Shown: piece after piece, positions 492 through 8,167 of the stretch
How the letters are laid out: each line of letters opens with the position of its first letter
Position numbering within the stretch: position 1 is the stretch's first letter
NCBI RefSeq assembly: GCF_006149045.1
Contig: NZ_VBSN01000059.1
Coordinates: 124,001-188,000 of the forward strand
Source of the DNA: Dyadobacter flavalbus
Lineage (GTDB): Bacteria; Bacteroidota; Bacteroidia; Cytophagales; Spirosomataceae
Reading direction: 5' to 3'
Length of the DNA: 64,000 bases
Notes under the pieces: generated by a model
Told to the model about the DNA's origin: nothing
What the model saw: only the letters and a program-made list of their open reading frames with translations
Database searches by the model: none
Made by a program: the position numbers and the translations under genes

Positions 492-1685
492 TTACTTTTC
501 AAAAAATGTAGCGCTTCCTCCGACCCAGGTGAAGTTTTTGTTATAATCCACACCAATCATTTCTCCACGACTCAAACGGCTTAAACTAATCAGTAATTCA
601 GGTTTTTCTGCGGAATCGTTCCAGCCGTACATCATCCTGATCTCGCATTTAACCAGTCCGTCCGGAGCCTGGATAACCGGTTCGTAGTTTACTTTTCTCT
701 GCAGAATATAATTTTCAGGGTCCGGGATGGTTTTGAGCAGTTCTTCCGAAACATGCAGCTGAACACCCGAACCGGCAAAGGAAAACAATGGTTTCAACAC
801 ATAATTTTCAAGATCAGCAGGATAATGGCCGTTGAAATTGCTTACAAAATCGGTTTTCGGCACAAAACTGCTTTTCAGGAACGGCAAGGCAAATTTACTG
901 ATCCGGTAAAACCAGTTGGGATGGCCGACCCATTTCACGTCGACATCATCAGTAAAGTGATAGCTGGTTTCCAGACCGGAATATTTCTTCAGATCATCAA
1001 AAATCAGGCGGTTATAAATCCTTTTGACCTGAATTTTTCTGCCGTTATCTTCATAATACAACTTTCTTCCTTCGCGGATCAGTTTGGTATAACAAACGGC
1101 TTTGACGCCCAGCATTTGCTCCGTAATGGCAAAATCAATGCGCGTTTTCTGCTTTTCGGGAAAAATTTCAAGCAAAATAACCTGTTCAGGATTATCGCCG
1201 GCAACGATCAGGCTGCGGAGCTTGTTTACATATTCTTCATAAGAATCCGCACCAAAACAATAGTGGAAATCGGCAGGAATATCAAAGTATTTACGAAACA
1301 GTTCAGACAAGTAAGCCTGATAACCAAATATGGAGGGAAAGCCTTGTAACTCAATCAACTGAGGATGCAATTCTCCGGATTCGTTCCTGCAGACTGCAAA
1401 ATCAATGGCCAGAAAAGAAGTATGCGCGTTTTCATTCGGCACCGATTCATTTTCAGGAACCGCACGGTCCGTTTTCTCCTTGAAATCCGGCGACAGCAGC
1501 GAATCAATAATTTCTCCGGAAGCCTGAATGATTTTGTTTTTTAGCTCAGCCGGAATGAAAACAGGCGTTTCTGCTATCCGGAAATCAAGCTGTCCGGGAA
1601 AATCGACTTCAAAAGCTTTCAGGAACTCCTGATATTTGTTTTCTGTAAATGATTGATTGTAAGCTTCGCGTGCTTCTTTTTGCAT
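492..1685 (-). CDS. Permuted ATP-grasp-like ligase, substrate unknown
   Basis: 397-residue soluble protein. I do not recognise an exact orthologue, but two stretches look like an ATP-grasp enzyme in circularly permuted order, as in the glutathionylspermidine synthase family. Residues 92-118 carry a metal-site-like pattern (AIDFAVCRNESG then PQLIELQGFPS), and only later, at residues 295-309, comes a nucleotide-binding pattern YVLKPLFSFAGSGVQ, followed by YILQRKVNYEP (326-336) and EIRMMYGW (348-355). In a canonical ATP-grasp the order is reversed. The C-terminus ends LSRGEMIGVDYNKNFTWVGG, resembling the last strand of that fold. It lies between a glutamine amidotransferase (27-base gap) and an aminotransferase (4-base gap). 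An amide- or peptide-bond-forming role is inferred from fold and neighbours. It could also be a degenerate, non-catalytic relative. Confidence 0.7.
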   Translation of the reverse strand: MQKEAREAYNQSFTENKYQEFLKAFEVDFPGQLDFRIAETPVFIPAELKNKIIQASGEIIDSLLSPDFKEKTDRAVPENESVPNENAHTSFLAIDFAVCRNESGELHPQLIELQGFPSIFGYQAYLSELFRKYFDIPADFHYCFGADSYEEYVNKLRSLIVAGDNPEQVILLEIFPEKQKTRIDFAITEQMLGVKAVCYTKLIREGRKLYYEDNGRKIQVKRIYNRLIFDDLKKYSGLETSYHFTDDVDVKWVGHPNWFYRISKFALPFLKSSFVPKTDFVSNFNGHYPADLENYVLKPLFSFAGSGVQLHVSEELLKTIPDPENYILQRKVNYEPVIQAPDGLVKCEIRMMYGWNDSAEKPELLISLSRLSRGEMIGVDYNKNFTWVGGSATFFEK

Positions 1686-2667: not shown

Positions 2668-3768
2668 TTAATACAACCCGACCTTGGTTTCGGAAACAAT
2701 GTAATCCACAACGGCGCTCATATTTCCGGTTTGTTCAAATACGGCAAGCTGGCGGTCTGCACCGGTTCCCATTCGCATGATCTCGTGAATGTAACTTATT
2801 TCATGTCTGCTGCCGAGTTCATCTACAACATCGTCAATAAATTCCAGCAGTTCTTCCACCAGAATACTGTACTCGACTTCCTCCTGTTTACCAAAATCAA
2901 TGAGTTTGCCGTGAATGCCATACCGTGCGGCGCGCCATTTGTTTTCATTGATCAGCATCCGGTGATAGGGCCGGAAGCTGAGGTTCATGCGGTGCAGTTT
3001 ATGGATTTTGGCTACAAGCGCCTGCATAATGGCGGCCAGGCAAATGGTTTCGTCCGTTCGCATGGGCACATCGCACATGCGGAATTCAATGGTATTGAAA
3101 AACGGGTGAAGCCGGATATCCCACCAGATTTTCTTGCCGTTGTCAATGCATTTGGTCTTGATCAGCAATGCGACATATTCATCGTATTCCGAAGCACTTG
3201 CAAAAAAGTCCGGGATTCCGGTTCTCGGAAATTTATCAAAAACCTTGGAACGGTAGGATTTGAAACCGGTATTTCTGCCGCACCAGAAAGGCGAGTTGGT
3301 CGACAATGCATAAATATGCGGCAGAAAATACCGCACGGCGTTCATGATTTCGATGCCTTCGTTCCGGCTTTCAATCCCGACATGCACATGCAGACCGAAA
3401 ATGAGATTTCCGCGAGCTACATCACGCATTTCGTCAATAATCTCATCATAGCGCGGATCCGGCGTAATGAGCTGTTCCACCCAGTCGGCAAAAGGATGCG
3501 TTCCGGCTGCGGCGACCTGCAGATTCTGTTTTTCCGCAAGGTCCAGAATCATTTTCCTTAAATAAGTGACCTCTTCACGCGCTTCCTGAATATTATGGCA
3601 GATATTTGTCCCTACTTCCACAACCGCCTGATGCATTTCTGCTTTTACTCTTTCCTTAAGTGTGATTTTCCCGTCCTCCACAAGTTTGGACATATGCGAC
3701 CGCAGATTGCGCGTAACGGGATCAATGGTCTGAAATTCTTCTTCAATTCCCAGAGTGAAAGTTGCCAT
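2668..3768 (-). CDS. Carboxylate-amine ligase, GCS2/YbdK family
   Basis: 366-residue member of the glutamate-cysteine ligase type 2 family (COG2170, E. coli YbdK-like), with a glutamine-synthetase-like fold that uses ATP to join a carboxylate to an amine. The start MATFTLGIEEEFQTIDP carries the family GxExE metal-site motif. AEMHQAVVEVGTNICHN (about 43-59), AAAGTHPFADW, FGLHVHVGIE and the FNTIEFRMCDVP segment follow as in the family, and the length is typical. YbdK itself has weak gamma-glutamylcysteine ligase activity; most homologues, this one included, have no known substrate. It is the third gene of the operon, 27 bases after the ATP-grasp gene, which suggests successive amide-bond formations by two unrelated ligase folds. 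Confidence 0.93.
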   Translation of the reverse strand: MATFTLGIEEEFQTIDPVTRNLRSHMSKLVEDGKITLKERVKAEMHQAVVEVGTNICHNIQEAREEVTYLRKMILDLAEKQNLQVAAAGTHPFADWVEQLITPDPRYDEIIDEMRDVARGNLIFGLHVHVGIESRNEGIEIMNAVRYFLPHIYALSTNSPFWCGRNTGFKSYRSKVFDKFPRTGIPDFFASASEYDEYVALLIKTKCIDNGKKIWWDIRLHPFFNTIEFRMCDVPMRTDETICLAAIMQALVAKIHKLHRMNLSFRPYHRMLINENKWRAARYGIHGKLIDFGKQEEVEYSILVEELLEFIDDVVDELGSRHEISYIHEIMRMGTGADRQLAVFEQTGNMSAVVDYIVSETKVGLY

Positions 3769-3795: not shown

Positions 3796-4968
3796 TTAAG
3801 ATTTATCCAATTTGGAATTTTTGGCCGGCGCTTTGGTTGCAGCCGCTTTTTTGGTTGGTATTTTGGGAGCCGGTTCCAGGATTGTTTCAAATCCTTTGTC
3901 TTCAACCGGCTTCAGTGCTTTTTTAGGCGCGACAGATTTTACTTTAACTTCCTTTGCAGACGTAACCGGTGCAGCTGGCGCAGACGGTACCGATGCAGGT
4001 TCGGCAGCCATCTGCGGCGTACCGATTGCATCTTTTACAAATGTTCCCCACGTCAGGTTTGATTGTCCGGGAACATGCTTTTGAGCACGTTCAATGGCCA
4101 TGTTTGCCGCAGCTTCCACAACCCATTCAAAATTGTCGGGTCCGACGGAATAAATGTCTGCGTCCGGCGCAGGATTACAGAAATCAATGGCAACCGGAAT
4201 GCCGTCGCGTACTGCAAATTCGACGGTATTGAAGTCGTAACCCAAGGCAACGTTCAGCTTTAAAGTGTAGTCACGAACCGTTTCCAGCAACTTTTCTCTT
4301 TCTTCACCCGTGGCTTTTATTTCGGCAGCATACCTCAGATGATGCGGATTTCTGGGCTCGTAAGGCATAATGAGCACATCTTTCTGCCCGATGCAGTAGC
4401 AGCGGAAATAATCGTCAAAGACAACTTCTTCCTGCAACATCATAACAAGATGTCCGGTTTCCTGGTGTTTGTGCCACATATCCTGCGGGTTCACGACTTT
4501 ATAAACGCTTTTCCAGCCTCCGCCGTCATGTGGTTTCATGTATGCCGGAAAACCTACATACTGGAATATTTCTTCCCAGGCCATCGGATACGCAAGGTTG
4601 CGGAAAGAGGTTTCGGAAGTATTTTCAGGACGTTCCCTTGAAGGCAGCAGTACGGTCTTCGGAACCGGAACCCCGATTTTCTCGGCGAGTGCATTATTGA
4701 AAAACTTTTCATCAGCGCTCCACCAGAACGGATTATTGATTACAGCAGTCCCGGACAAAGCTGCATTTTTGAGGTATGCTCTGTAAAAGGGCACATCTTG
4801 TGAAATACGGTCAATGATAACGGCATATTCCGTGGGATCGGCCTGAACAACTTTGTCAATGGATACAGCTTCTGCAATAATGCCGTCCACTGCTTTACTG
4901 TTCACTCTTTCAATAAAAGCGTTCGGAAACGTATTTTCCATTCCAAACAATATTCCAATTTTTTTCAT
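3796..4968 (-). CDS. ATP-grasp amide ligase with low-complexity C-terminal tail
   Basis: 390-residue ATP-grasp protein (RimK/D-Ala-ligase-like). Residues 1-95 form a pre-ATP-grasp region (MKKIGILFGMENTFP); FPAYMKPHDGGGWKSVYKV (140-158) supplies the ATP lysine K145 and a glycine-rich loop; MMLQEEV (176-182) matches the hinge; NTVEFAVRDG then IDFCNPAPDAD (247-271) carries the metal ligands E250, D262 and N265. From about residue 320 the protein turns into an Ala/Pro/Lys-rich tail of about 70 residues with several KKA and PAP runs, probably disordered. It is the second gene of the operon, 66 bases after the esterase. It likely ligates an amino acid or amine to a carboxylate; the substrate is not visible. 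The tail is unusual for a small-molecule ligase. Confidence 0.88.
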   Translation of the reverse strand: MKKIGILFGMENTFPNAFIERVNSKAVDGIIAEAVSIDKVVQADPTEYAVIIDRISQDVPFYRAYLKNAALSGTAVINNPFWWSADEKFFNNALAEKIGVPVPKTVLLPSRERPENTSETSFRNLAYPMAWEEIFQYVGFPAYMKPHDGGGWKSVYKVVNPQDMWHKHQETGHLVMMLQEEVVFDDYFRCYCIGQKDVLIMPYEPRNPHHLRYAAEIKATGEEREKLLETVRDYTLKLNVALGYDFNTVEFAVRDGIPVAIDFCNPAPDADIYSVGPDNFEWVVEAAANMAIERAQKHVPGQSNLTWGTFVKDAIGTPQMAAEPASVPSAPAAPVTSAKEVKVKSVAPKKALKPVEDKGFETILEPAPKIPTKKAAATKAPAKNSKLDKS

Positions 4969-5034: not shown

Positions 5035-5742
5035 TTACATAATACGGGATAAGTAATCCGGAAACATTTTGTGCCAGAGCGGCCAGTCATGCTTTTCCCA
5101 GCCGCGCACATCCAGCCAGTGGTCAATTCCGTTGTTGCTGAGAATGCCTGACATTTTCAAATTGCTGTCCAGACAAATATCCCAGTCTGATGTTCCGAGC
5201 ACGATTTTCATATGCCCGTACCGCCAGCCCTGTTCATTCGGCATAAAATCAACCGGATTATTGAAATAAACCGTATCGTCGTAAAATCCGTCGGTAAAGC
5301 TCCTGATGTCAAATGCACCGCTCATGCTGATCAGATAGGCGACCATGTCCGGATGACGGAAGGCATAATTGGCAGCATGAAAGCCTCCGAAGCTGCATCC
5401 GGCAACCCCGATTTTATCGACTTTGCATTCATTTTTGATAAAAGGAACCAGTTCGTTGTTCAGGAACTTGTCGTACTGAATATGGTTCAGGACCCGGTAT
5501 TGCGGGTTGAGATGCTTTGCATACCAGGAATCTGCATCAATGGAATCTACACAGTAAAGCTTGTATTTCCCGGATTCAATCTGCATGCGTACACTTTCGG
5601 TCAGGCCCATGTCCTTAGCCTGATAAAACCGCCCGAGCGTTGTCGGAAAAAGCAGAATCGGATAGCCCCAGCTTCCGTAAACAAGCAAATCAACGTTTCT
5701 GTCGAGATGATGAGAATAATATTTAATGTGCTTCTCTTCCAA
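5035..5742 (-). CDS. Alpha/beta-hydrolase esterase (esterase D type)
   Basis: 235-residue cytoplasmic alpha/beta hydrolase of the PF00756 esterase type. The nucleophile elbow is GVAGCSFGG with Ser117. A plausible acid lies in GTSDWD (about residue 184) and the histidine in GWEKHDWPLWH near the C-terminus, so the triad is complete. There is no signal peptide. It is the first gene of the six-gene minus-strand operon and diverges from a second esterase at 5851, with 108 bases between them. The family hydrolyses small esters and thioesters (for example S-formylglutathione) or transfers acyl groups. Linked to two ligases and a GATase, it may trim or transacylate the pathway product (inference). 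Confidence 0.88.
   Translation of the reverse strand: MEEKHIKYYSHHLDRNVDLLVYGSWGYPILLFPTTLGRFYQAKDMGLTESVRMQIESGKYKLYCVDSIDADSWYAKHLNPQYRVLNHIQYDKFLNNELVPFIKNECKVDKIGVAGCSFGGFHAANYAFRHPDMVAYLISMSGAFDIRSFTDGFYDDTVYFNNPVDFMPNEQGWRYGHMKIVLGTSDWDICLDSNLKMSGILSNNGIDHWLDVRGWEKHDWPLWHKMFPDYLSRIM

Positions 5743-7780: not shown

Positions 7781-8167
<387 letters not shown>

Follow-up and report, generated by a model that had tools for sequence, protein, structure and literature searches.

The gene at positions 492-1685 (minus strand) of a 64,000-nucleotide stretch of Dyadobacter flavalbus DNA, hereafter the window, raises the question of what its 397-amino acid product is and whether that product works together with the ligases encoded beside it. 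This protein, which we call ORFX, starts at an ATG and is predicted to be a circularly permuted ATP-grasp amide ligase; scans of ORFX itself against Pfam and NCBIfam returned zero matches. Its gene belongs to a tight minus-strand run that opens with EST1, an alpha/beta hydrolase (5035-5742; PF00756/PF00561), and continues with ATPG, an ATP-grasp ligase with canonical motif order, akin to Ddl, LysX and RimK (3796-4968; 390 amino acids), a GCS2 or YbdK-type carboxylate-amine ligase (2668-3768; 366 amino acids; PF04107, E 4.7e-62; PRK13515 above cut-off), GAT, a class-I glutamine amidotransferase-like protein with a Cys109-His212-Glu214 triad (1713-2567; 284 amino acids; PF00117, E 2e-6), ORFX, and a class-III aminotransferase (1-487; PF00202, E 5.4e-34) that runs beyond the window edge, so that its start alone is visible. 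The complete aminotransferase gene is present at L213:4277-5557. Calculated from the coordinates, the intergenic gaps along the run from EST1 to the aminotransferase are approximately 66, 27, 100, 27 and 4 bp, and EST1 adjoins ATPG in many other loci.

We modelled ORFX with AlphaFold2 from 55 aligned sequences (alignment A1, comprising the window protein and those of 54 of 80 loci), and the resulting model (pLDDT 90.4, pTM 0.89) shows an ATP-grasp fold. Foldseek matched it to 3n6x (E 1.4e-14), which is a putative glutathionylspermidine synthase, as well as to glutathione synthetases, while VIA-align placed YgiC at the top rank (Z 25.9, rmsd 3.5 over 342 residues), with YjfC at Z 25.3, E. coli Gss at Z 24.2-24.6, human glutathione synthetase 2hgs at Z 23.4, eukaryotic glutathione synthetases in general at Z of about 23, and trypanothione synthetase (TryS) at Z 23.1. 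Chains of the GSS, GspS, TryS and YgiC kinds align over their full length with model residues 1-397 or nearly so (Z 19-26), whereas canonical ATP-grasp chains such as Ddl, LysX/ArgX and RimK, whose chemistry is likely the same but whose motif order differs, reach Z 8.0 at most and cover residues 144-397 or less, which corresponds to the last 230-255 residues. Sequence identity to the closest folds (YgiC, YjfC and Gss) is 12-14%, and the best phmmer match in the PDB is YgiC at E 0.23, or at E 0.014 when a profile is used. The model thus puts ORFX among the circularly permuted ATP-grasp enzymes, in the superfamily that includes glutathione synthetase, glutathionylspermidine synthetase and YgiC; an earlier note on this DNA had proposed a permuted fold from motif order, and the end-to-end alignment with permuted ligases bears this out.

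The motif order itself also holds. Residues 92-118 (LAIDFAVCRNESGELHPQLIELQGFPS; window 1332-1412, minus strand), which contain LIELQGFPS and the putative metal site D95, E112 and Q114, lie ahead of residues 295-309 (YVLKPLFSFAGSGVQ; window 759-803, minus strand), which contain KPLFSFAGSGV with the putative nucleotide-binding K298 and a glycine loop. The two stretches do not resemble these motifs by accident: D95, E112, Q114, K264, K298, G305 and G307 are identical in all 119 relatives examined besides the query, a set made up of 79 of 80 loci from one collection (L042 was omitted as the gene caller had chosen an overlapping frame) and all 40 of a second. A profile-profile alignment with PF03738 enzymes, in which the PF03738 side comprised 15 sequences including YgiC, YjfC and Gss, is of modest strength (E 6.2e-5, hhalign probability 65%) and pairs D95, E112, Q114, K264 and K298 with YgiC D102, E115, N117, K267 and K302, and the glycine loop with G309. 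An excerpt of the TryS literature (PMC3581523) gives Asp330, Glu344 and Asn346 as Mg ligands, Lys513 and Lys548 as phosphate-binding, and Arg328 as contacting both the gamma phosphate and the carboxylate; read from order and spacing and without alignment, these residues would have equivalents in YgiC, with R328 corresponding to R100.

Two of these positions set ORFX apart from the PF03738 enzymes. The residue two positions before the metal Asp, R100 in YgiC, is Arg in 15/15 PF03738 sequences and mainly Ala (70), Val (19), Gln (14) or Thr (9) among the 119 ORFX relatives, and the PF03738 metal Asn is Gln in every one of the 119, with the Asp and Glu kept. Catalysis by ORFX might therefore differ from that of the known enzymes, since an Asn metal ligand is replaced by Gln and the TryS-type Arg by other residues. 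The same two changes could instead mark a catalytically dead, pseudoenzyme-like relative that is retained for binding, a reading we consider very improbable because D95, E112, K264, K298 and both loop glycines are unvarying across the relatives.

Whether this enzyme belongs to the glutathionylspermidine synthase family is a separate matter from its fold. Pfam sets its cut-offs at 29.3 bits (gathering) for PF03738 and 32 bits for PF14403. At E<=1 ORFX itself matches neither family; PF03738 gives weak matches in 34 of 55 ORFX family members (best E 9.3e-4), two of which score 21.3 and 19 bits and so fall under the cut-off, and PF14403 gives matches in 9/55 relatives (best E 9e-4, these being E values alone, to be read against a cut-off set in bits). 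The Lys and Gly-rich loop feature of PF03738 is present throughout the family (K298, G305 and G307, 119/119), and a distant group of five PF03738-type proteins that exceed the cut-off (alignment A3) shares a short local match alone with ORFX. In the comparison with PF03738, ORFX hence stays below the Pfam threshold and is not a member. The proposal that its nearest relatives are of the glutathionylspermidine synthase type is upheld (Z 24.2-25.9), with the correction that sub-threshold PF03738 scores, the D/E/Q site and the missing Arg lead us to treat ORFX as a separate family and not as a glutathionylspermidine synthase.

The genome from which the window derives also encodes a separate, full-score PF03738 protein (L132, G000:C60:259430-260560; 367 bits), so ORFX is not the sole permuted ligase of its genome. 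This bears on the idea that ORFX has diverged from YgiC or glutathionylspermidine synthase while keeping their substrates, and would thus be a true glutathione-like or peptide-polyamine ligase. That YgiC, YjfC and Gss are its nearest folds and that a glutamate-cysteine-ligase-like GCS2 protein is encoded in the same operon would fit such a role; we nonetheless judge it quite unlikely given the 12-14% identity, the missing catalytic Arg and the Asn-to-Gln change, and the role may already be filled by the full-score protein. As a partial control, we searched 198 genomes for PF03738 and found it in 18, of which 13 carry ORFX too, an overlap that points to a general enrichment in certain genomes and indicates that PF03738 is not a constant companion of ORFX.

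The earlier note had further claimed that a standard ATP-grasp enzyme is encoded in the same operon, and ATPG confirms this. It is matched by LysX and RimK models and by Ddl at E 7.9e-4 by profile, and a structure model with a core at residues 1-315 (mean pLDDT 71.7, lowered by a low-confidence tail) retrieved Ddl (1.8e-13), ArgX/LysX (8.2e-13 for ArgX) and RimK (1.2e-11) in Foldseek. A conserved K145 precedes E250 and N265, residues whose roles we assign provisionally from the motif. According to this model ATPG is a canonical ATP-grasp enzyme with a Ddl/RimK-type fold, and because ORFX is permuted the operon contains two ATP-grasp topologies. Foldseek also listed PsnB and MdnC, which are suggestive of graspetide-type maturation of a ribosomal peptide; we set this candidate aside because the intergenic gaps, at most ~100 bp judging from the coordinates, leave scant space for a precursor gene. 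The C-terminal tail of ATPG (window 3796-4023, minus strand), about 75 residues rich in Ala, Pro and Lys and modelled with low confidence, is missing from most aligned relatives outside Dyadobacter.

To see whether the two topologies are linked in function, as had been suggested, we examined the distribution of their genes across a sample of 296 Bacteroidota genomes. After dropping one 25-residue fragment (G105), ORFX was found in 92; weak matches to ATPG (G063, G272) and to GAT (G107, G183, G271, G314, G323, G326, G334) were likewise removed from the counts, and alignment A5 was built without L080, which has a stop in the translated range, and L021. Among the 92 ORFX genomes, ATPG occurs in 89, GCS2 in 87 and GAT in 55, while among genomes without ORFX they occur in 19, 16 and 15, respectively (Fisher p of 3e-52, 2e-51 and 1e-21, uncorrected for phylogeny). 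In the 39 ORFX genomes from the same family, order and class, GAT is found in 39, ATPG in 38 and GCS2 in 35, and the 20 ORFX-lacking genomes nearest to the window contain neither GAT nor GCS2 and a single weak ATPG match (G065). Both ORFX-present and ORFX-absent states occur within families f12, f19, f22, f23, f25 and f26, and a single old split does not account for all of the pattern. Often the genes co-occur without being linked, as in several distant families (e.g. G085, G101, G157). A tblastn search of plasmids with ORFX and ATPG gave no match.

The strongest evidence for joint action comes from genomes in which ORFX is replaced. All 15 genomes that possess ATPG and GAT and lack ORFX carry a different permuted ATP-grasp protein of ~450 amino acids, of the PF14403 type (CP_ATPgrasp_2; for example L193:5643-7055, plus strand). 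Of five such proteins scanned, each matches PF14403 at E<=0.01 and two exceed the 32-bit cut-off. In 14 of the 15 genomes this gene sits between ATPG and GAT, in the operon slot that ORFX otherwise occupies, and in the fifteenth it adjoins ATPG with GAT on another contig. Although the two families share this slot, the PF14403-type proteins have an E-x-N metal motif and show no significant match to ORFX when profiles are aligned (hhalign E 0.03, probability 1.7%). The PF14403-type family is present in 16/296 genomes, the sixteenth of which (G193) has a divergent copy plus ORFX. Altogether, 104 of 108 ATPG genomes possess at least one permuted ATP-grasp from the ORFX or PF14403-type family, and the remaining four (G065, G143, G216, G343) have low-scoring ATPG matches of 207-344 bits. 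Together with the co-occurrence in 89/92 genomes, the presence of a second permuted family where ORFX would otherwise sit supports the suggestion that the permuted and canonical enzymes act together.

The gene beside ORFX differs between loci. We surveyed 120 loci (26 from records named Dyadobacter and partly redundant) for the gene lying within 400 bp upstream of ORFX, and found GAT in 86, a PF07969 amidohydrolase in 7 (at -1 to 24 bp from the matched ORFX start), a relative of M29-type metallopeptidases (PF02073) in 5, GCS2 in 4 and no gene of these kinds in 18, a class that includes L158, in which the M29-type gene lies two genes upstream. The M29-type relative takes GAT's place in several lineages (L096:6963-7979 and L160:7296-8321, both plus strand). 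In distant lineages a ferredoxin-like 115-amino acid gene precedes the amidohydrolase-ORFX pair (L179:9931-11742, minus; L190:7062-8937, plus), and a gene similar to it lies close to the operon at window 7820-8167. Two related genomes have a sodium:solute symporter gene followed by ORFX (L166:6637-9237, plus; L167:8790-11369, minus), and in the first of these the two form a single uninterrupted 867-amino acid reading frame with a Met where the ORFX part begins. Downstream of ORFX in Chitinophagaceae-type loci are nine grouped proteins, one of which is a 332-amino acid protein without a Pfam or NCBIfam match (L075:9263-10258, plus).

From its sequence, GAT could possibly be a glutaminase, a gamma-glutamyl hydrolase or an acyltransferase. 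One tentative possibility is that GAT pairs with ORFX as a glutamine-dependent amidotransferase, in which GAT would free ammonia from glutamine and ORFX would make a primary amide from an activated carboxylate. The position of GAT immediately upstream of ORFX in 86/120 loci, its Cys-His-Glu triad, kept in 26/26 sequences, and its place beside the replacing permuted ATP-grasp in 14/15 genomes are consistent with this arrangement. Set against it are the M29-type, amidohydrolase and GCS2 genes that fill the slot elsewhere, the 37 of 92 ORFX genomes that lack GAT, which indicate that it is no obligatory subunit, and the best solved relative of GAT by profile, homoserine O-succinyltransferase (2vdj, E 3.3e-5), on account of which GAT may not be a glutaminase. 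It is also possible, to much the same degree, that ORFX and its neighbour are the separated halves of a synthetase/amidase pair, with ORFX making a conjugate that the hydrolase, be it GAT, the M29-type protein or the amidohydrolase, would cleave. E. coli Gss provides a possible parallel, as it joins synthesis and hydrolysis in one protein and hydrolyses its own product, according to an excerpt of PMC6272389. Three unrelated amide-handling families in the slot suit a pair of this kind, yet in 18/120 loci the 400 bp upstream of ORFX contain no recognised partner, and GAT could after all be a glutaminase. We give about equal weight to GAT as an ammonia feeder and as a cutter of the ORFX product.

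Under either role for GAT, ORFX itself is probably an active permuted ligase of its own family that shares a pathway with ATPG and GCS2, with an amide-handling neighbour that feeds ammonia or trims. By homology, ORFX would bind Mg-ATP through D95, E112, Q114 and K298 and phosphorylate a carboxylate on a peptide-like acid, after which an amine or ammonia would attack the acyl phosphate to give an amide; this acyl-phosphate route to an amide is the chemistry to which homology and the conserved residues point. Computation shows the fold, the motif order, the conserved site, the operon, the co-occurrence and the exchange of families in the slot, whereas the catalysis, the order of the steps and the existence of one shared product are our inferences. 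Judged from the company that it keeps, ORFX perhaps carries out the capping step on a peptide-like product whose synthesis involves GCS2 and ATPG, and GAT, or elsewhere the M29-type metallopeptidase or amidohydrolase, would supply ammonia or trim the product. Most likely, then, ORFX is a ligase in an undescribed pathway to a small peptide-like amide.

Known systems offer partial likenesses. E. coli YgiC and YjfC, annotated as peptide-spermidine ligases and described as peptidylpolyamine synthetases in an excerpt of PMC12568646, share with ORFX the full-length permuted fold and the aligned D, E, K and K residues, but differ in N117 and R100 and lie in another operon. Gss and TryS resemble it in their synthetase-domain fold (Z 24.6 and 23.1), although Gss has a fused amidase domain that ORFX is without, and we saw no sign that glutathione or spermidine are ORFX substrates. 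Eukaryotic glutathione synthetase has the permuted fold and recalls the GCS2-type ligase in the ORFX gene set, but is 12% identical. Our literature search retrieved no title or abstract describing the ORFX family; the amidoligase survey of Iyer et al. 2009 fell outside its scope and may mention the operon. The fold is already known; the ORFX family, its E-x-Q metal motif, the operon and the slot replacement were not found in the literature searched.

Through these results a family named in neither Pfam nor NCBIfam gains a fold and a probable chemistry, and is tied by inheritance to two other ligases in roughly a third of the Bacteroidota genomes sampled. The swap of permuted families in one operon slot constitutes a natural experiment, from which it seems that their shared role is needed alongside ATPG. 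As a more speculative proposal, which we put forward tentatively, Bacteroidota may possess an undescribed pathway in which GCS2, a canonical ATP-grasp and a permuted ATP-grasp make a small glutathione-like amide conjugate. On this view two different families have each come to occupy the permuted slot, and turnover of the product falls to one of three unrelated hydrolases. Gene deletion and metabolomics now offer a direct test of the pathway and of what it makes, and if the proposal is true, the product would be a new and widespread metabolite or modification in environmental Bacteroidota.
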